Of a stretch of 34,028 nucleotides of DNA, positions 22,515-33,226 are shown one piece after another; within the stretch, counting starts at the first letter, position 1, and every line of letters starts with the position of its first letter. The stretch spans positions 1-34,028 of the forward strand of contig JAGXTA010000029.1 of assembly GCA_018333535.1 (NCBI GenBank), read 5' to 3'. The DNA is from Deltaproteobacteria bacterium (GTDB lineage Bacteria; Desulfobacterota; BSN033; UBA1163). Below the pieces are notes generated by a model that was not told the DNA's origin, did not search any database, and saw nothing but the letters and a program-made list of their open reading frames with translations. Position numbers and translations under genes: made by a program.

Positions 22515-23738
22515 ATGGGTGCAAAGGTGAAACAGTTATTCTGGAAAGTGGCTGGGCCGCTCCTCCGAAGAGCTTTAAAAGAGAAACATAAGGACGTCTC
22601 TGAATTATCCATTCAGGAGGTTAACCAACTTCTTAAAAGGGGAGAGAGCATAGTCCTCCTCGATGTCCGTGAGAAGGAGGAATTGGCCCTGGGATACCTC
22701 AAAGGATCTCTGTTTGTTCCTCGGGCCAGCCTGCCGGAGAAAGCAGAGACCCTGCTTCCAGATAAAGAGGCTTCTATTGTCGTTTACTGTGCGGCAGGGG
22801 TGCGGTCCATCCTCGCAGCCAAGACTTTGCGGGAAATGGGCTACAAACAGGTTGCCTCCATGAGAGAAGGGATTGAGGGGTGGAAAAAGGCGGGATATGA
22901 AGTCTCCAGCCAAACAGGGCTGACCTCCGAACAGCTCACCCGGTACAGCCGCCATATCCTCCTGCAGGAAGTTGGGGCAGAAGGGCAGGCCCAACTCCTG
23001 AAAGCAAAAGTCCTTCTGGTAGGCGCAGGCGGCCTGGGCTGTCCGATAGGTCTCTATCTGGCAGCCGCAGGGGTTGGAACATTAGGTATTATCGATGATG
23101 ACCGTGTGGATCTGACCAATCTCCAGCGGCAAATCCTGCACCGGACTTCTGATGTGGGAAGGCCAAAGGTCGAATCGGCAAAAGAAGCCATCGCAAGGAT
23201 CAATCCGGACGTAAAGGTGGTTACCTACCAGGAGCGCCTCACCTCGGAAAATGCGATTAAGATATTTGAAGATTATGACATCATTGTGGACGGGTCGGAT
23301 AACTTCCCGACGAAGTACCTGGTCAACGATGCGGCCTTCTTTACGGGAAAACCCTTTGTTTTTGGCGGAGTGTTTCAGTTTGAAGGGCAGGCGAGCGTCT
23401 TTGCCCCAAAAGAGGGAGGCCCCTGTTTACGGTGCCTCTTTCCCGAGCCTCCTCCACCCGGGCTTGTCCCCAGCTGAGACGAGGCAGGTGTCCTGGGAGT
23501 TGTGCCCGGGCAAGTTGGTTTGATTCAGGCTACAGAGGCGATCAAGCTTATTTTGAAAATTGGGAAACCTTTGATCGGCCAGTTCTTTATCTATAACGCG
23601 CTCGACGTGGAATTCAAACTCTTTCCGGTCAAGAAGAATCCGTCATGTCCCCTCTGCAATGGGGAGCCAAAGATTAAGGAGCTGGCGGATTATCATGAGG
23701 CGTGCGGTCTGGAGACAAGAAGTCAAGCAACGATTTAG
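22515..23738 (+). CDS. selenoprotein: N-terminal rhodanese fused to MoeB/ThiF-type E1-like enzyme (in-frame UGA 23475-23477)
   Basis: 407 residues if UGA is read as selenocysteine at residue 321. Start ATG 22515 follows GGGGGAACGAG. Residues 27-130 form a rhodanese with Cys92 (VVYCAAGVRS). From 137 the protein is MoeB/ThiF: ATP loop GAGGLG (170-175), NLQRQILH, DNFPTKYLVND, zinc Cys304/307 (CLRC). The frame continues after the UGA as DEAGVLGVVPGQVGLIQATE and reaches the second zinc pair CPLC. The family reads PSC-AEAGVLG at this place; the UGA replaces exactly that conserved Cys (Cys187 of E. coli MoeB, Cys184 of ThiF). It should adenylate the carrier and pass sulfur to it. Confidence 0.85.
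23489..23512 (+). promoter_or_regulatory. candidate SECIS element of the MoeB selenoprotein
   Basis: CCTGGG (23492-23497) pairs with CCCGGG (23505-23510) around the loop AGTTGTG. TG (23489-23490) and CA (23511-23512) lengthen the stem, with T23491 bulged. The stem core begins 14 bases and the loop 20 bases after the UGA, in the normal bacterial range. Confidence 0.55.
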
Positions 23739-23767
23739 ATGGGGGGGGAGAAAGGAAAAGAAGGAAG

Positions 23768-24745
23768 ATGGAACGAGTCAAGCATCATTTAAAAAGATTA
23801 GTGGGAGGTTTAACTTTACTCCTCGTCACAGTTTTTATTCTTCTCATGTCAAGCCAAATTACGATGGCGATTCCAAACGGAGGATATACGCGACCCGAAC
23901 TTCTGATTCAGCCTGAAGACCTTAAGGTATTGATCGACAAGAAAGACACCGATATCCGGATCATCGATGTCCGGGAAAAGATCAAATATCTTGCCGGTCA
24001 TATTCCGGGAGCCGTGAATATCTGGAGACCCGATATCGTGGATAAGGACCATCCCACCCCAGGGATGGTGGCTCCTCAGGCCCAGGTCGAAGAGCTGATG
24101 GGAAGACTTGGAATCAGCCATCGAAATACGCTCATCATCTATTCCGACGGCGCTGATGGCGCCAGGCTCTGGTGGATATTAGCTTACTATGGTTTTCCCA
24201 TCCGGCAGTTGAAGCTTCTTGACGGCAGTCTTGATGGCTGGAAGGCAAAGGGTTACCCGACCGAGATGATTTCACCTCAGATCAGTCAGACTCAATTCAA
24301 GCTTCCGGGAAAGACGAAATCGATGGAACCTCTGCTCTGCACTTTGCCGGAAGTCAGGGGTGCCTTGAAAGAACCCAAGAAGGTCGTTCTCGATGTCCGG
24401 GCAAGCAAAGAGTATCTTGGAGAGGAGACCCTTGCGGGTGCGGTCAAACCGGGACGCATTCCCGGAGTGAAGTGGATTGAGTGGAGGGAAGTTCTAATAA
24501 AGGAGGGACCCAATAAGGGATACTGGAAATCCGCCGAGGAGATAAGGAAACTCTTTGCTGATTTAGGGGTGACTCCGGATAAGGAAATCTATATCTACTG
24601 ACAGTCCGGGGTGCGCTCGACTCACAGTTTGGTGAGTCTCTATCTGATCGGTTTTCCACTCGAGAAGTTGAGAAATTATGATGGTTCCTGGATCGAATGG
24701 AGTCGGAGTACAGAGGCCATTGAAACAGGGCCACCGAAGAATTAG
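23768..24745 (+). CDS. selenoprotein: exported two-domain rhodanese (in-frame UGA 24599-24601)
   Basis: 325 residues from ATG 23768 with selenocysteine at 278. The start is preferred over 23702 because it gives a proper signal sequence (residues 1-35, LVGGLTLLLVTVFILLMSSQ) and follows AAGGAAG. Domain 1 (45-165) carries YSDGADGAR where an active rhodanese has Cys, so it is the structural half. Domain 2 (190-320) should have the active-site loop YCQSGVRSTH; the DNA encodes Y-UGA-QSGVRSTH. The frame then continues normally (LVSLYLIGFPLEKLRNYDGS) to TAG at 24743. It probably works in the periplasm or membrane as a sulfurtransferase. Confidence 0.85.
24619..24638 (+). promoter_or_regulatory. candidate SECIS element of the rhodanese selenoprotein
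   Basis: GACTCAC (24619-24625) and GTGAGTC (24632-24638) form seven perfect pairs around AGTTTG. The stem begins 17 bases after the UGA. The loop opens AGTT, as in the MoeB hairpin. Confidence 0.6.
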
Positions 24746-25204: not shown

Positions 25205-26227
25205 TTGGAAATGCCTATGGAAGCCATTCAAATAAGAGATGAAATTGAATCACGAAGGGAGTTGAGAAAGGAGAAACCTCTCTCTTTGCTCACTTCGATC
25301 GGCAATACGCCCCTGATTCAGATTCGGCAGTTGACAAATCACATCGGAGGGGTTCAGATCTTTGCCAAGGCAGAGTGGCTCAATCCCGGTGGCTCTGTAA
25401 AGGACCGCGCAGGTCGAAAGATCATCGAAGATGGGGAAAAATCTGGTCAACTCACAAAGGAGAAGATCATTCTCGATTCCACATCGGGCAACACAGGAAT
25501 TGCTTATGCAATGATCGGTGCCATCAAGGGATACAGGGTGGAACTGGTCGTGCCGGCCAATATCAGCGAGGAAAGAAAGAAAGCCCTGGAGGCCTATGGG
25601 GTAAAACTGATCTACACGGACCCGGTCCTGGGGTCAGATGGCGCACTTGTCGAAGCAAAGAGGATTTATGAGGCCAATCCGTGCCTCTATTTTAAGGCGG
25701 ATCAATATAATAATCCCGCAAACTGGAAGGCTCACTATGAGACCACAGGAATTGAGATTCTTCAACAGACCGGATGGAAAGTGACCCACTTTGTTGCAGG
25801 CGTGGGGACAGGTGGAACGTTGATCGGAACAGGCAGAAGATTGAGAGAGTTTAATCCTGACATTAAACTATTTGGTGTTCAGCCGGACAGCGGCTTTCAT
25901 GGAATAGAGGGGTTGAAGCATATCGAAACCGCCATCCGGCCGGGCATTTATGATGAAACCATCTTGAATGGTACGTTTTTTGTGAAGACAGAAGACGCCT
26001 TTGGAATGGCGAACCGTCTTACCAGGGAAGAAGGGCTATGGGTAGGTCCTTCTTCGGGCGCTGCTTTCTGGGCATCCTTAAAGTTGGCAGAGTCGGTGTC
26101 CCAAGGCGTGATTGTAACAATATTTCCGGATGGAGGAGCACGATATCCTGAGTATTGTATTGATTGCGAGAAACAGAAGAAACGGCTCTCAGTTGAACAT
26201 CTACCGCTAAGACCTTCACCCCCCTAA
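25205..26227 (+). CDS. cysM: CysM-like cysteine synthase
   Basis: 340 residues from TTG 25205; an ATG two codons on is also possible. PLP Lys66 in NPGGSVKDRAG, TSGNTG (93-98), GVGTGGTLIG and GPSSGAA are all intact. The form fits the CysM/OPS-sulfhydrylase side of the family, and the neighbouring carrier and JAMM protease match the CysO route. The gene is distinct from cysK (6309). The C-terminus adds EYCIDCEKQKKRL, with two further cysteines, and its last codons overlap the structured RNA element at 26183. I infer that it accepts carrier-thiocarboxylate sulfur. Confidence 0.85.
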   Translation: MEMPMEAIQIRDEIESRRELRKEKPLSLLTSIGNTPLIQIRQLTNHIGGVQIFAKAEWLNPGGSVKDRAGRKIIEDGEKSGQLTKEKIILDSTSGNTGIAYAMIGAIKGYRVELVVPANISEERKKALEAYGVKLIYTDPVLGSDGALVEAKRIYEANPCLYFKADQYNNPANWKAHYETTGIEILQQTGWKVTHFVAGVGTGGTLIGTGRRLREFNPDIKLFGVQPDSGFHGIEGLKHIETAIRPGIYDETILNGTFFVKTEDAFGMANRLTREEGLWVGPSSGAAFWASLKLAESVSQGVIVTIFPDGGARYPEYCIDCEKQKKRLSVEHLPLRPSPP

Positions 26228-26260
26228 AGGTTTAGCCGTTTGACTGAGAGCTGTTTTTTT
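26183..26260 (+). terminator. terminator with conserved internal hairpin (RNA element copy 1)
   Basis: The outer stem, CGGCTCTCAGT (26183-26193) with ACTGAGAGCTG (26243-26253), is followed by seven T. The inside holds CCTTCACCCCCCTAAAGG then TTTAGC (26213-26236), pairing back to CGCTAA. The internal part is nearly identical to 26737-26760. Confidence 0.7.
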
Positions 26261-26280
26261 AAAAACTGAGGAGAAGGGTA

Positions 26281-26553
26281 GTGAGAATCATTGGAGCATT
26301 GATCATCATCGCCGTCCTTTTTTCCTATTTACCCATGGATGCGATGGGAAATTGTTCGGAAGAAGATCATTCCACAAATATGAGAATGGATTGTGGATAT
26401 ACATTCCACTGTCCGGTCATTTATAACCCAGCCTTACCGCAACTATCGGTTCTTTCCATCAATGGCTGGTTGAGATGGATGCCGACCGTAGGGAAGGTTG
26501 AGGAATTGCCCCGAAGGATCTTTCATCCCCCCAAAACATTTTTAAAAACATGA
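26281..26553 (+). CDS. small exported Cys/His protein upstream of the efflux genes
   Basis: 90 residues from GTG 26281 behind GAGGAGAAGGG. Signal peptide MRIIGALIIIAVLFSYLPMD. The mature protein has NCSEEDHSTNMRMDCG and FHCP (three Cys, two His, two Met), then a neutral stretch and the ending RIFHPPK. Similar little proteins ending in FHPP are often found before heavy-metal RND operons. It may bind copper in the periplasm; no experimentally known family comes to mind. It lies between the two RNA elements. Confidence 0.6.
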   Translation: MRIIGALIIIAVLFSYLPMDAMGNCSEEDHSTNMRMDCGYTFHCPVIYNPALPQLSVLSINGWLRWMPTVGKVEELPRRIFHPPKTFLKT

Positions 26554-26580
26554 TTGAAAGGGATGAAGGAGCTTGGCATA

Positions 26581-26658
26581 ATGATTGCTTATAAAATATA
26601 TAAAGAATTAGGCATTTAAAATAAATTTCTCGACAATCGGAGAGAAAAAAGCAATCAT
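26581..26658. repeat. inverted repeat ATGATTGCTT / AAGCAATCAT
   Basis: Ten perfect pairs between 26581-26590 and 26649-26658, with an inner TTTCTC / GAGAAA. It lies in the 380-base gap 26554-26933, which holds no gene. The gap contains this dyad, the RNA element at 26686-26780 and an AT-rich tail up to cusC. Confidence 0.55.
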
Positions 26659-26685
26659 ATTCTTATAAGTTAAAGTAATCAATGG

Positions 26686-26780
26686 AAAAAGCTCTTGGCC
26701 GTGGGCCTAATGAGAGTTAGGTCCAACTTGCTTAAGCCTTCACCCCCCGAAAGGTTTAGCTATATGGCCAGGAGCTTTTT
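26686..26780 (+). ncRNA. structured RNA element with terminator stem (copy 2)
   Basis: P1: AAAAAGCTCTTGGCC (26686-26700) with GGCCAGGAGCTTTTT (26766-26780), 15 pairs. P2: GGGCCTAA / TTAGGTCC around TGAGAG (26703-26724). P3: GCTTAAGCCTT with AAGGTTTAGC around CACCCCCCGA (26730-26760). A three-way junction ending in T. P3 shares its sequence with copy 1; P1 differs in sequence but not in pairing. Confidence 0.6.
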
Positions 26781-26933
26781 GTTTATAAATTGAACAGAAA
26801 GGGTCGCAAAGAATACATCAACGTAACTACTTAGAATTTAAATATTTTTTAAATTATTTTCTTTTAGTTTCATCAAACATAGTGTAAAATAGATAAAATT
26901 TTCCATTCCAAACAGAAAGAAGGTGAAGAGATA

Positions 26934-28220
26934 GTGAGAAAGCCGATAAAATTCTTTAGATTAACTCTCTTTTTCTCCCTCATTTTCCTCTTCTTCTCCT
27001 CCCCAGGTCAGGGGGAGAATAAGCAACTGAAGCTGGATGTGTTGATTGAAGAGGCCCTTCAGAATAATCCCGAGATCCTGGCTTCAAAAAAGAGGTGGGA
27101 AGTCTTTAAGGAAAAGATTCCCCAAGCCCGCGCTCTTCCGGATCCGATGTTTGGTTTTGGGATCGTAAGCCTACCCACCAATTTCAGCTTCAGGGAAGAA
27201 GACATGACGATGAAGGAGCTCTCCATCTCCCAGATGTTTCCCTTTTACGGAAAGAGAAGACTGATGGGAGAAATGGCAGAAAAAGAGGCGGAAGCTGTTT
27301 TTAAAGATATCCAGGAAAGGACGAATAGGATTATCAAAGAGGTGAAAGCGACTTATTTTGAGCTTTCTTACAATTATCGGTCTACGGAAATTACGCAAAG
27401 AAACAAGGAGATTCTGGAGAGCTTTGTAAAGATTGCTGAGACCCAGTACGCCCTTGGGATGGGGATACAGCAGGATGTGCTGAAAGCCCATGTCGAGGTT
27501 TCCAAGATGGTCGATGACCTGATTATGCTGGGCCAGAAGAAGAGAGCCTTGGAAGGAAAGCTAAGTGCCCTGCTCAATCGGTCTCCGGAAGTTTCTGTGG
27601 GAGAGCCCGCAGAAGTAATTTTTAAAAAACTCCCGTACGCCATCGATGAACTTCAGAAGATGGCTGTCGAGATCAACCCCACCTTGCAGGGGATGAAGAA
27701 GATGATCGAAGCAAAAGAAAAAGCCTATGAACTGGCCAAAAAAGAATATTTCCCTGACCTTAATTTCAAATTCGCTTATGGTCAGAGGGATAATAGCCGC
27801 GGCCCGGAAGCGATGAAACGGAGAGATATGCTTACAGGAATGATGGAGATCAATATCCCCATCTTCTATAAGTCGAAACAAGAACGAAAAGTTGCAGAGA
27901 CGAAAGCCGACATCCAGGTCATCGAAGCCCAGTACCGGGCGATGAAGAATGAGATCCTCTTCATGATCACGGACATGGGGTCGATGATTCAGAGAGTGGA
28001 GAGGCAGTTGGAGCTTTATAAAACAGGGATCATCCCGCAGGCCAGTCTTCAGATCAATTCGGCGATGAGCGCATACCGGGTGGGTAAGGCTGATTTTATG
28101 ACCCTGCTCGATAGCCGGATGACACTCTACCGGTATGAGTTAGAGTATCATCAGGCTCTCACCGAATATGAAAAGAATGTGGCCAGCATGGAAGCGGTCG
28201 TCGGAAGACGTTTTGAATAA
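26934..28220 (+). CDS. cusC: outer-membrane efflux protein, CusC/CzcC (TolC) family
   Basis: 428 residues from GTG 26934 behind AAGGTGAAGAG. Signal peptide at 1-28. Two TolC-type repeats: first LKLDVLIEEALQNNPEILAS, with a coiled region to about 215; second AIDELQKMAVEINPTLQG onward. QMFPFYGKRRLMGEMAEKEA and DVLKAHVEVSKM are typical of metal-resistance OMFs. It forms the outer-membrane channel for the CusB/CusA pair that follows. First gene of the operon. The metal is inferred from CusA. Confidence 0.88.
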   Translation: MRKPIKFFRLTLFFSLIFLFFSSPGQGENKQLKLDVLIEEALQNNPEILASKKRWEVFKEKIPQARALPDPMFGFGIVSLPTNFSFREEDMTMKELSISQMFPFYGKRRLMGEMAEKEAEAVFKDIQERTNRIIKEVKATYFELSYNYRSTEITQRNKEILESFVKIAETQYALGMGIQQDVLKAHVEVSKMVDDLIMLGQKKRALEGKLSALLNRSPEVSVGEPAEVIFKKLPYAIDELQKMAVEINPTLQGMKKMIEAKEKAYELAKKEYFPDLNFKFAYGQRDNSRGPEAMKRRDMLTGMMEINIPIFYKSKQERKVAETKADIQVIEAQYRAMKNEILFMITDMGSMIQRVERQLELYKTGIIPQASLQINSAMSAYRVGKADFMTLLDSRMTLYRYELEYHQALTEYEKNVASMEAVVGRRFE

Positions 28221-28429: not shown

Positions 28430-29662
28430 ATGAAGAGATTGTTATGGCTGATCTTCTTTTTGGTCCTACCCTGGTTGATGGCAGGCTGTGGAAAAGAGAC
28501 GACCACTCATTCCGCAAGCGGATCCGCCTCGGGCGGAAAGGAACATCAACCAGAGGTCAAACAGGAAGCGAAGAAAGCGGATGACTTAGACATCAAAGGA
28601 CTGACCATGGAATCGATCCAGAAGGAAGGAAAGATGCAGGAGGTGGCTCCCGGAGCCGTCCAGATATCTCCGGAACGGCAGCAGTTGATCGGAGTAAAGA
28701 TCGGAAAGGTTGAGATGAGGCCGCTTGAGAAGATCATCCGGACTGTGGGAAGGGTGGATTATGATGAGAGGAAGGTTCACATGGTCTCACCCAAAATCGG
28801 AGGCTGGATCGAAGACCTCTATGTTGACTACATAGGGCGGTTCGTAAGGCAGGGAGAACCCCTTCTCACGATCTATAGCCCGGAACTGGTCTCCACGCAG
28901 GAAGAGTACCTCATCGCACTGCGGGCAAGGAAAGATCTGATGAAGAGTCCATTCACAGAAGTAGCCGCAAGCGGGAACTCCCTTGCGGAATCTGCCAGGC
29001 GTCGTCTCAAACTCTGGGATATCAGCGACGATCAGATCAAAGCCCTGGAGGAGAGCGGACAGGCGAAGAAGACGCTCACCCTCTATTCTCCTTTTAGCGG
29101 ATTCGTCCTCGAAAAGATGGCCTTTAAAGGGATGAGTTTGATGCCCGGCGTGGCCCTCTTCAAATTGGCGGACCTCTCAACCGTATGGCTCTATGCGGAT
29201 ATCTATGAATATGAACTTCCCTTTATCAGAGTAGGACAGCAGGCGGCGATCCAGCTTTCCTATCTTCAGGGAGAGACGTTTACCGGAAAGGCGATCTATA
29301 TCTATCCCTCTCTGGATCCCAATACCCGGACGGCAAAGGTGAGGTTTGAGTTTCCCAATCCTGATGGGAAGCTGAAGCCGGAGATGTATGGCAATGTGGA
29401 GATTAAGGTGCACTTAGGTCAGAGGCTGGTGGTGGTTGAAGGGGCGATCATCGATACGGGACTTCGACAGATGGCCATTGTGGATAAGGGCAATGGCTAT
29501 TTTGAACCGAGAGAGGTGAAGGTCGGCGCCAAGGTCGATCATTATTACGAGATCTTAAAAGGCCTGAAGGCCGGGGAGCGCGTCGTGACAAGTGCCAACT
29601 TCCTCATCGACTCTGAGTCGAGGTTCAAAGAAGCTGTTGGAGCCCCGGGACATGCCCATTGA
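28430..29662 (+). CDS. cusB: periplasmic adaptor protein, CusB-like lipoprotein
   Basis: 410 residues from ATG 28430 behind AGGAGG. Lipoprotein signal with Cys20 (WLMAGC). After a low-complexity linker (22-60) come VQISPERQQLIGVKIGKVE, the barrel and lipoyl halves (GRVDYDERKVHMVSPKIGG, RFVRQGEPLLTIYSPELVS and LYSPFSGFVLEKMAFKGMSL), and a conserved end KAGERVVTSANFLIDSESRF. It bridges CusC and CusA, and in CusB it also hands over Cu(I)/Ag(I). Complete length. Confidence 0.9.
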   Translation: MKRLLWLIFFLVLPWLMAGCGKETTTHSASGSASGGKEHQPEVKQEAKKADDLDIKGLTMESIQKEGKMQEVAPGAVQISPERQQLIGVKIGKVEMRPLEKIIRTVGRVDYDERKVHMVSPKIGGWIEDLYVDYIGRFVRQGEPLLTIYSPELVSTQEEYLIALRARKDLMKSPFTEVAASGNSLAESARRRLKLWDISDDQIKALEESGQAKKTLTLYSPFSGFVLEKMAFKGMSLMPGVALFKLADLSTVWLYADIYEYELPFIRVGQQAAIQLSYLQGETFTGKAIYIYPSLDPNTRTAKVRFEFPNPDGKLKPEMYGNVEIKVHLGQRLVVVEGAIIDTGLRQMAIVDKGNGYFEPREVKVGAKVDHYYEILKGLKAGERVVTSANFLIDSESRFKEAVGAPGHAH

Positions 29663-29968: not shown

Positions 29969-32900
29969 ATGATCGAGAAGATTATCGAGATCTGTGCGAA
30001 GAACCGGTTTTTTGTTTTCACTGTGGTCCTCCTGGTCATGTTGGGAGGGGTCTATTCAATTAAGCATATCCCCCTCGATGCCGTGCCTGACATCTCCGAT
30101 GTCCAGGTGATCATCTATACACCGTGGGAGGGAAGAAGTCCGGATCTTGTGGAGGATCAGGTGACCTATCCCATTGTCTCGGCCCTCATCTCAGCACCCA
30201 AAGTGAGGACGGTGAGGGGATTTTCCGATTTTGGATTCTCCTATGTCTATGCGGTCTTCGAAGATGGAACGGATATCTACTGGGCAAGGTCCAGGGTTCT
30301 GGAATATATGCAGCAGATCACCGGAAGGCTTCCGGCAGGAGCAAATCCTGTGCTTGGACCGGATGCGTCAGGAGTGGGTTGGGTCTATACCTATGCCCTT
30401 GTGGATGAGAGCGGCAAGCATGATCTTGCCTATCTGCGCACCCTTCAGGACTGGTATCTGCGTTACTCCCTGGCCAGCGTGGAAGGAGTGGCAGAGGTGG
30501 CCAGTGTGGGAGGTTTTGTCAAACAGTACCAGATCAATATCGACCCGAACCGGATGTCGGCCTATGGCATCTCTCTCAGGAAGGTAATGGAGCGTGTCCG
30601 GATGTCGAATGCGGATGTGGAGGGAAGGCTTCTCGAATTTGGGGGCAGAGAGTATATGGTGCGGGGACGGGGATACATCAAGTCCGTCGAGGATATCCAG
30701 AAGATTGTGGTGGGCGGCCGCCAGGGAACCCCGATCCTTCTCCGGGACATCGCTCAGATCAGCCTCGGTCCAGAGATCCGCAGGGGAATTGTGGAGTTGG
30801 ATGGGAAGGGCGAGGTCGTTGGCGGGATCGTCGTGATGCGATTCGGTGAAAATGCCCTTCATGTGATCGAGAAGGTCAAGGCAAAAATCGAAGAGATTAA
30901 ACCAGGACTTCCGGAGGGCGTGCAGATTGTTCCAACCTACGACCGCTCCGAACTGATACAACTCTCCATTGAAAATCTTCAGAAGACACTTCTCACGGAG
31001 ATCATTGTCGTAAGCCTGGTCATCATCGTTTTTCTCCTCCATTTTCGTTCTGCCCTCGTCCCTATCTTTGCCCTGCCCATTGCGGTCATCGCCTCCTTCA
31101 TTCCGATGTATTTTTTAAAGCTGACATCGAACATCATGTCGCTCGGAGGCATTGCCCTCTCCATCGGAGTTCTCGTGGATGCCTCGATCGTCATGGTGGA
31201 GAACGGGTATCGCCACCTCTCCGAAGGCACGGAGGAGGATCGGAAGAATAGCGGGGCCACCATTGTCCGGGCCTGCCAGCAGGTGGGACGGGGCATCTTC
31301 TTCTCACTGATCATCATCATCATCTCCTTTGTCCCGGTGTTCATGCTTGAGGCTCAGGAAGGAAGGCTCTTCCGTCCCCTTGCCTTTACAAAGACCTTTG
31401 CCATGGCGGCCTCTTCGATTCTCGCCATCACTCTTGTTCCTGTATTGATGACGATCTTCTTAAAAGGCAAACGCCTCAAACCCGAGGCTGTGAACCCGAT
31501 CTCAAGGTTCTTCCGATGGTTCTATGAACCTGTCATCCACTTTGTTTTGAGATTTAAGAAGACAGCGCTCTTCGTCAACTTCCTCATCATTCCCTTGAGC
31601 GTCTTTCTGTTATTAAAGATCGGAAGCGAGTTTATGCCCCCCCTTTACGAGGGGACGATCTTCTATATGCCTGTTACCAGTCCGGGGATTTCAGTGACCG
31701 AGGCCGGAAGGATTCTTGCGGTTCAGGATAAGATCCTTAAGAGCTTTCCGGAAGTCCATACCGTCTTTGGAAAGGCGGGCCGGGCAGAGACATCCACGGA
31801 CCCTGCGCCCTTCAGCATGATGGAGACAACAGTCCACCTGAAACCGAGAGAGGAGTGGCGAAAGAAAAGGAAGGATTATTCTTTTCTCCCTCAATGGATG
31901 CAGCCTGCGGCGGAAAAGATCTTCGGAACCCATCGAACCATGACTTATGAAGAGCTCGTGGAAGAGATGGACAAAAAGATGCAATTTCCGGGGTTCCAGA
32001 ATGCCTGGACCATGCCCATCCGGGCCAGGATCGATATGCTGACGACAGGGATCCGGACGCCGGTCGGAATCAAAGTCTCGGGTCCGGATTTGAAGACGAT
32101 CGAAGAAACAGGAATCCATATCGAAGTCATCCTTAAAGAAGTGGCCGGCACAAGGAGCGTCTATGCCGAGAGGGTGGCAGGAGGCTATTTTACCGATATT
32201 AAGATCAACCGGGATGCGATCGCCCGGTATGGCCTGACCGTCGGCGAAGTGCAGGAGGTCATTCAGACAGCCCTGGGAGGAATGAATATTACCTGGACCG
32301 TCGAGGGGAGAGAGAGATATCCAGTGAATATCCGTTACCCGCGGGAACTCCGGGATGATATTGAGAGGATAAAAAGGATATTGGTTCCGGTGAGAGGAGG
32401 AAGCGCTTCAGGGACGCAATCGATGGGCGGCTCTTCAGCCCCTCTTCTCCATGTTCCCCTGGCCCAATTGGCAGAGATCAGCCACACCACAGGCCCTGCC
32501 ATGATCCGGGATGAGGATGCCATGCTGACCGGTTATGTCTATGTGGATGTGACCGGAAGGGACATCGGTGGATATGTGGAAGAGGCGAAGAGGGTGATCC
32601 GGGAGAAATTGAAGCTTCCTACGGGATACTCTCTCTCCTGGAGCGGCCAGTATGAGTTTCAGGTCAGAGCGAAGGAGAGATTAAAAATCCTGATGCCCAT
32701 CGTCTTCTTCATCATCTTCATTCTCCTCTATATGACATTCCATTCGATTGCAGAGTCAATCATCCTGATGGTTGCCGTCCTCTATGCGATGACCGGAGGC
32801 GTCATCCTCCAGTACCTCCTCGGATATAATTTCAGTGTGGCGGTCTGGGTGGGCTACATTGCTCTCTACGGGATAGCGGTGGAAACCGGTATAGTGATGA

Positions 32901-33226
32901 TCATCTACCTTCACGAGGCTTTGAACAAACGTCTTGAGAAAGGAGAGATCACACAGCAGGACATCCACGAGGCCACGGTGGAGGGTTCGGTCCTCCGGCT
33001 CCGTCCGAAGTTGATGACTGTCGGGACAACGCTGATCGGTCTGGTTCCCATCATGTGGTCTTCGGGCGTGGGTGCGGATGTGATGAAGCCCATTGCGGCT
33101 CCCATCATCGGAGGCCTTCTGACCTCGACCATCCATGTATTGATCATCACACCGATCATCTTTGCCATGGTCAAGGAGAGGGCTTTGAAGAAAGGGAAGT
33201 TAAAATCAGCGGAGATGAAGATTTAA
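29969..33226 (+). CDS. cusA: CusA-type RND metal efflux pump
   Basis: 1085 residues from ATG 29969 behind AAGAGGAGC. An HME-RND transporter with twelve expected spans. PLDAVPDISDVQVIIYTPW is the family opening and GIALSIGVLVDASIVMVENG carries the proton-relay Asp. The three methionines that bind Cu(I)/Ag(I) in E. coli CusA are present: YMPVTSPG (Met573), FSMMETTVHL (Met623) and RIDMLTTGI (Met672). That makes copper/silver far more likely than zinc or cobalt. It exports ions through CusB and CusC. Inner membrane. Confidence 0.92.
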   Translation: MIEKIIEICAKNRFFVFTVVLLVMLGGVYSIKHIPLDAVPDISDVQVIIYTPWEGRSPDLVEDQVTYPIVSALISAPKVRTVRGFSDFGFSYVYAVFEDGTDIYWARSRVLEYMQQITGRLPAGANPVLGPDASGVGWVYTYALVDESGKHDLAYLRTLQDWYLRYSLASVEGVAEVASVGGFVKQYQINIDPNRMSAYGISLRKVMERVRMSNADVEGRLLEFGGREYMVRGRGYIKSVEDIQKIVVGGRQGTPILLRDIAQISLGPEIRRGIVELDGKGEVVGGIVVMRFGENALHVIEKVKAKIEEIKPGLPEGVQIVPTYDRSELIQLSIENLQKTLLTEIIVVSLVIIVFLLHFRSALVPIFALPIAVIASFIPMYFLKLTSNIMSLGGIALSIGVLVDASIVMVENGYRHLSEGTEEDRKNSGATIVRACQQVGRGIFFSLIIIIISFVPVFMLEAQEGRLFRPLAFTKTFAMAASSILAITLVPVLMTIFLKGKRLKPEAVNPISRFFRWFYEPVIHFVLRFKKTALFVNFLIIPLSVFLLLKIGSEFMPPLYEGTIFYMPVTSPGISVTEAGRILAVQDKILKSFPEVHTVFGKAGRAETSTDPAPFSMMETTVHLKPREEWRKKRKDYSFLPQWMQPAAEKIFGTHRTMTYEELVEEMDKKMQFPGFQNAWTMPIRARIDMLTTGIRTPVGIKVSGPDLKTIEETGIHIEVILKEVAGTRSVYAERVAGGYFTDIKINRDAIARYGLTVGEVQEVIQTALGGMNITWTVEGRERYPVNIRYPRELRDDIERIKRILVPVRGGSASGTQSMGGSSAPLLHVPLAQLAEISHTTGPAMIRDEDAMLTGYVYVDVTGRDIGGYVEEAKRVIREKLKLPTGYSLSWSGQYEFQVRAKERLKILMPIVFFIIFILLYMTFHSIAESIILMVAVLYAMTGGVILQYLLGYNFSVAVWVGYIALYGIAVETGIVMIIYLHEALNKRLEKGEITQQDIHEATVEGSVLRLRPKLMTVGTTLIGLVPIMWSSGVGADVMKPIAAPIIGGLLTSTIHVLIITPIIFAMVKERALKKGKLKSAEMKI

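Follow-up and report, generated by a model that had tools for sequence, protein, structure and literature searches.

A lineage-restricted structured RNA family repeated before the Cys/His and efflux genes of a heavy-metal locus in Syntrophaceae-like bacteria

Heavy-metal efflux systems of the class considered here are usually described as being under protein-sensor control. In Rhodobacter, the CcsR/cuckoo RNAs, for which a 3'-UTR origin is possible, expose a C-rich, anti-Shine-Dalgarno-like loop on a terminator-proximal hairpin, and for C-rich-loop small RNAs of alphaproteobacteria pairing of the loop with G-rich ribosome-binding sites has been proposed. The element described here differs from the CcsR/cuckoo RNAs in its loop sequence and in being fixed in cis before the same genes. 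With the metal-ion riboswitches NiCo (czcD) and yybP-ykoY (Mn2+) it shares a structured junction that precedes metal transport genes and is linked to termination, but it matches them neither in sequence nor in Rfam and its architecture is different. In the pyr operon of Bacillus subtilis, a conserved hairpin recurs at three attenuation sites ahead of successive genes, where termination is under the control of a protein; PyrR recognizes the terminal loop, the upper stem and a purine bulge of this hairpin (PMC7430163). Like these attenuators, the present element places a repeated, terminator-linked hairpin with conserved loop, upper stem and purine bulge before successive genes of an operon. Unlike the pyr sites, which have a separate antiterminator and anti-antiterminator, it carries its inner hairpin nested in the terminator helix, and this hairpin is a candidate binder only. 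We thus regard the pyr attenuators as comparable and as the closest analogue, a likeness that would not imply membership.

Two copies of one fold at the cus locus

The window, which is the whole analysed stretch of 34,028 nucleotides, carries MoaD/ThiS-like, ThiF-rhodanese, rhodanese, JAB-domain and cysteine-synthase-like genes, followed by element copy 1, a gene for a 90-aa Cys/His protein, element copy 2 and cusC-, cusB- and cusA-like genes. The features that are relevant here are as follows.

25205-26227, + strand: cysteine-synthase-like gene, stop codon (26225-26227) within P3 (loop/stem) of copy 1
26180-26262, + strand: element copy 1 (A), P1 26180-26198/26238-26256, T tract about 26254-26260
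26206-26216/26227-26236, + strand: P3 of copy 1, loop CACCCCCCTA at 26217-26226
26281-26553, + strand: small Cys/His protein gene (90 aa), start 29 nt past the P1 core of copy 1
26574-26589, + strand: putative sigma-54-like promoter, TGGCAT-N5-TTGCT, about 164 nt before P3 of copy 2
26686-26786, + strand: element copy 2 (B), P1 26686-26702/26764-26780, P2 26703-26711/26716-26724, T tract 26776-26780
26730-26740/26751-26760, + strand: P3 of copy 2, loop CACCCCCCGA at 26741-26750
26793-26819, + strand: conserved block AACAGAAAGGGTCGCAAAGAATACATC, at a nearly constant distance after copy 2 across genera
26934-28220, + strand: cusC-like outer membrane efflux gene (Pfam OEP, E 2.8e-44), heading the pump operon downstream of copy 2
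28430-29662, + strand: cusB-like adaptor gene
29969-33226, + strand: CusA/CzcA-family RND pump gene (TIGR00914, 1116.7 bits against a cut-off of 701.45)

The preliminary description had reported two copies of a motif, CCTTCACCCCCC followed by T or G, AAAGG and TTTAGC, at 26213-26236 and 26737-26760. Both were found at these positions and they are the sole matches in the 4.39 Mb genome, in which the reversed pattern, used as control, gave none. Each of these 24-base motifs forms the hairpin P3, which sits inside a larger fold. The folding energy is -33.1 kcal/mol for copy 1 (z = -8.06) and -47.3 kcal/mol for copy 2 (z = -5.69), and for neither copy did any of 200 shuffles reach an equal value. 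In the covariance model searches copy 1 was matched at 26181-26258 (E 7.7e-15) and copy 2, which was itself a training member of model R1, at 26687-26782 (E 3.4e-29). Copy 2 carries the additional hairpin P2 (26703-26724), which creates a three-way junction. The outer stems do end in a T run as had been described, but the lengths of 11 and 15 pairs assigned to them need correction, since the fold gives about 19 pairs for copy 1 and 17 for copy 2. Similarly, the stems keep the same pairing through compensatory changes, but their sequences are not unrelated and a GCUCU core is common to both. It also proved correct that the copies bracket the small Cys/His gene ahead of the pump, and the pump was assigned to the CusA/CzcA family. 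Its TM4 motif (SIGVLVDASIVMVEN) suggests specificity for Cu/Ag rather than for divalent metals.

The C-run, which had been highlighted as a loop feature, is indeed the P3 loop, but in copy 1 it is also coding (CCT TCA CCC CCC TAA). Copy 1 directly abuts the cysteine-synthase-like gene in five genomes of the window's genus, and thus the C-run became the C terminus of the encoded protein (Pro-Ser-Pro-Pro-stop); the same C terminus was found at loci L015, L016, L017 and L018. In G010 and G011, two further genes lie between the cysteine-synthase-like gene and the element, and we infer that a deletion joined the two in the window's genus. A leader peptide read through the C-run (PSPP*) was considered and rejected as a general mechanism, since this frame is coding in copy 1 only; in copy 2 of G012, G013 and G015 it is stopped a few codons upstream, and no conserved start was found.

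For the 90-aa Cys/His protein, searches of Pfam and NCBIfam gave no match. It has an apparent signal sequence and the motifs DCGYTFHCP and FHPPK, and homologs are present at the same place in five relatives.

Covariation and distribution of the RNA family

The fold of the family consists of the closing helix P1 with a U tract behind it, the optional hairpin P2 and the conserved hairpin P3, which comprises a C-rich loop, a CCUU stem and a purine bulge. G010 alone departs from the P3 loop sequence CACCCCCC of the other 14 copies and has CGCCCCCC. In an alignment of 14 copies that was fitted to the structure, and therefore leans towards it, 96.9% of the cells were paired and 10 pairs had double-sided changes; shuffles gave 5.7 ± 1.4 (4 of 500 were as high) and slid controls at most 2. 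The covariation score of this alignment (0.253) exceeded all 500 shuffles and every slid control. A hand-anchored count on all 15 copies agreed with these data (97.3% paired, 9 pairs with double changes). P1 bears most of the covariation (7 of its 12 pairs). In contrast to P1, the sequence of which drifts, P3 is almost invariant, with a single A-U to U-A swap at the last pair of P3a. P1 has the anatomy of an intrinsic terminator, with a U-rich tract behind a stable hairpin in nearly all copies (the tract is absent in copy 1 of G009), and the apical part is unusually large. P1 is also nearly palindromic with A and T runs, and reverse-strand model matches were seen.

Fifteen clear copies were found in 11 of the 17 genomes of the window's GTDB-level family, 13 of them in addition to the two in the window, whereas the preliminary description had set a lack of further copies as refutation; these relatives are mostly or all MAGs and represent few independent lineages (four genera). 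Nine copies (B) lie before cusC, five (A) where the cysteine-synthase-like gene ends, and one in front of the Cys/His gene of G011. The two copies within one genome are probably related by duplication. A 16th copy (locus L112, G016:C154) is interrupted by an N run that begins after AAAGCTCTTGGCCAAGGG, so that P1 can be read in its 5' part only. The sequence past this gap pairs poorly with P1.

When 99 genomes (the window's own and relatives) were searched with a pattern allowing up to 3 mismatches, matches were obtained in nine genomes, and the reversed control gave a single match. The match in G008:C2 (3 mismatches) lacked the element context and was rejected. Covariance model R1 added copies in three more contigs (G008:C19, G010 and G011), and a second model (R2), built from 14 copies, returned the same set. 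Neither model detected the element outside the window's family among the 395 genomes of the phylum that were sampled, nor in the six remaining genomes of the class. A degenerate pattern, run against 84,980 species genomes, matched 12 loci. Nine of these belong to this RNA family and come from MAGs with the titles Syntrophaceae, Deltaproteobacteria or uncultured bacterium. The remaining three are chance matches in unrelated records that lack the fold, and the fold is likewise lacking in a viral contig that the pattern matched. Exact matches to GCTAAARCCTTYACC in G005, G006, G007 and G010 do not have an element-like fold either and look like chance occurrences in coding sequence.

In Rfam 15 no family matched at the gathering threshold, and with E up to 10 only chance-level matches were obtained; this is in line with the preliminary description, in which the family had not been recognized. 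Its proposal of a conserved RNA shape within terminator-like helices, rather than a plain repeat, is borne out by the fold, the covariation and the further copies. Taken together, the element is a previously undescribed, lineage-restricted structured-RNA family of known kind.

One weak model match was recorded at locus L045 (4828-4900, minus strand; G012:C86:19827-19899; E 8e-5) near a ClC-channel-like gene. It has the same P1/P3 layout (GGCTCTCGG...CCGAGAGCC, GCTAAAA...TTTTAGC) without the C-run and may be a decayed relative or else a terminator with a chance likeness.

Position before the genes and proposed attenuation

The element, with its conserved and covarying fold, stands in a fixed position before the same genes. 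It precedes cusC in all ten orthologs with upstream sequence (nine intact copies and the partial one of G016), while G004 and G005:C44, for which upstream sequence is absent, are outside this count. For the more distant cusC homologs in G003, G012:C117 and G018 there was no covariance model match. As is typical of a cis-acting leader, three of the four genera have the element ahead of cusC and the fourth (G011) has it ahead of the Cys/His gene. The genes upstream of it vary between the genera (Cys/His gene, thioredoxin-like gene, Rrf2 gene and others), which ties the element to the gene that follows it. The next start codon lies 29 nt away for copy 1 of the window and 28 nt away for copy 1 of G005; in G011, G016 and G010 the distances are about 30, about 45 and 52 nt. 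Such short gaps offer a separate promoter hardly any space or none, so that transcription either passes through the element or starts within it. Most B copies lie 135-244 nt before cusC, a distance that includes the conserved block. This block may be a promoter, an operator or a leader element; as a separate promoter before cusC in most B copies, it could count against attenuation. All clear copies are at one locus (cus), and therefore the gene association gives just one clue to a ligand.

The single locus, the fixed position before genes and the short gaps make an intra-operonic, cis-acting transcription attenuator that is regulated via P3 the best explanation, although we would put our confidence in it no higher than evenly balanced. 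The genes form an operon-like string (cysteine-synthase genes, A, Cys/His gene, B, cusCBA). P1 and the U tract would act as an intrinsic terminator, which RNA polymerase would meet just ahead of each metal-related gene, and readthrough would be regulated. P3 would be the recognition site for a protein or a small ligand, the binding of which would alter the frequency of termination. The copies thereby probably set how much transcription reaches the Cys/His gene and the heavy-metal efflux pump operon. The regulated terminator envisaged in the preliminary description is thus the leading reading, with terminator-like P1 helices before the genes, but the antiterminator that might go with it was not found in copy 2 of the window. 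There, no partner competing with P1 was evident (-28.9 kcal/mol for P1 against at most -17.2 kcal/mol for competitors, a comparison that rests on this copy, with L019 and the copy-1 rows left out), and mutually exclusive terminator and antiterminator folds were not seen. Since no segment able to compete with P1 is evident, a switch would need an outside factor. The promoter-like site ahead of copy 2 and the near-invariance of P3 speak for attenuation, whereas the Cys/His gene of G008, which has no copy ahead of it, and the missing U tract of copy 1 in G009 speak against it.

The element represents a structured-RNA family of uncultured Syntrophaceae-like bacteria that has good covariation support and a link to heavy-metal efflux. 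Should it respond to metal or thiol status, it would add RNA-level control to this class of systems. It is small and has two natural copies, which makes it easily tested.

Alternative readings

P1 might simply be an unregulated terminator that partitions the gene string into fixed expression ratios, with P3 being kept for RNA stability or because of recent descent. The terminator anatomy at gene boundaries is consistent with this idea, P1 could work in both directions because it is nearly palindromic with A and T runs, and a copy is dispensable, as G008 has kept the Cys/His gene with no element copy ahead of it. However, such a terminator would not require that, in four genera, the loop and the inner hairpin stay invariant as the main stem drifts, and we consider this explanation rather unlikely. 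A small RNA is possible because copy 2 is flanked by a promoter-like site and a terminator and the loop is similar to the anti-Shine-Dalgarno sequence (CACCUCC). A transcript delimited by this promoter and terminator would be about 190 nt long, and copy 1 would be a 3'-UTR-derived RNA. The sigma-54-like site (GG-N10-GC) was found 161-183 nt before P3 of copy 2 in the window, G002, G005, G008 and G012, but not in G013 or G015, and in the window a sigma-70-like match (TTGAAA-N17-CATAAT) overlaps it. An invariant loop on covarying stems would also suit a small RNA, the C-rich loop of which might pair with G-rich ribosome-binding sites on the mRNAs it targets. Sites of complementary sequence (GGGGGGTGAA) outnumber the reversed control to a moderate degree (about 118 non-self sites against 75 in 10 genomes), but this excess is small and was counted irrespective of position at start codons. 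A trans-acting RNA would not need the cus locus, yet all clear copies are there, and the very short gaps to the next gene suit a leader better. A small RNA thus appears unlikely, and the same low probability applies to this mode of action. Pairing of the loop with the ribosome-binding site of cusC or of the Cys/His gene, or with the downstream GGGTC block, was inspected by eye and found to lack support, since it amounts to at most 4 bp and is broken in G005 and G012.

Metal sensing by the RNA itself, which the preliminary description had also envisaged, would be a special case of attenuation, with direct binding of Cu(I)/Ag(I) or another metal ion by P3 and the junction. The element does precede a CusA/CzcA-family pump and a Cys/His-rich small protein, but with P1 as terminator a metal that stabilizes the fold would shut down efflux, the opposite of what a detoxification operon needs. 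Moreover, no expression platform is visible beyond P1, a single type of locus is involved, and in the literature searched no paper used the phrase 'copper riboswitch' or a similar one. We consider a metal riboswitch very improbable. We are equally sceptical of a ligand-binding RNA, with its aptamer within the closing helix of the terminator, that would sense Cu(I)/Ag(I), or a thiol falling under metal stress, and gate readthrough into the Cys/His gene and cusCBA. Attenuation via P3 by a protein or small ligand is retained as the preferred reading.

A separate observation concerns the rhodanese-like gene upstream (23702-24601). Here, an in-frame TGA is followed by QSGVRST... (window 24599-24745) at a position where Cys is expected (YCQSGVRS). 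The reading frame is cut at the same point in G006, G009 and G010 and runs through in G002 and G005, and this TGA likely reflects a selenocysteine/cysteine exchange.
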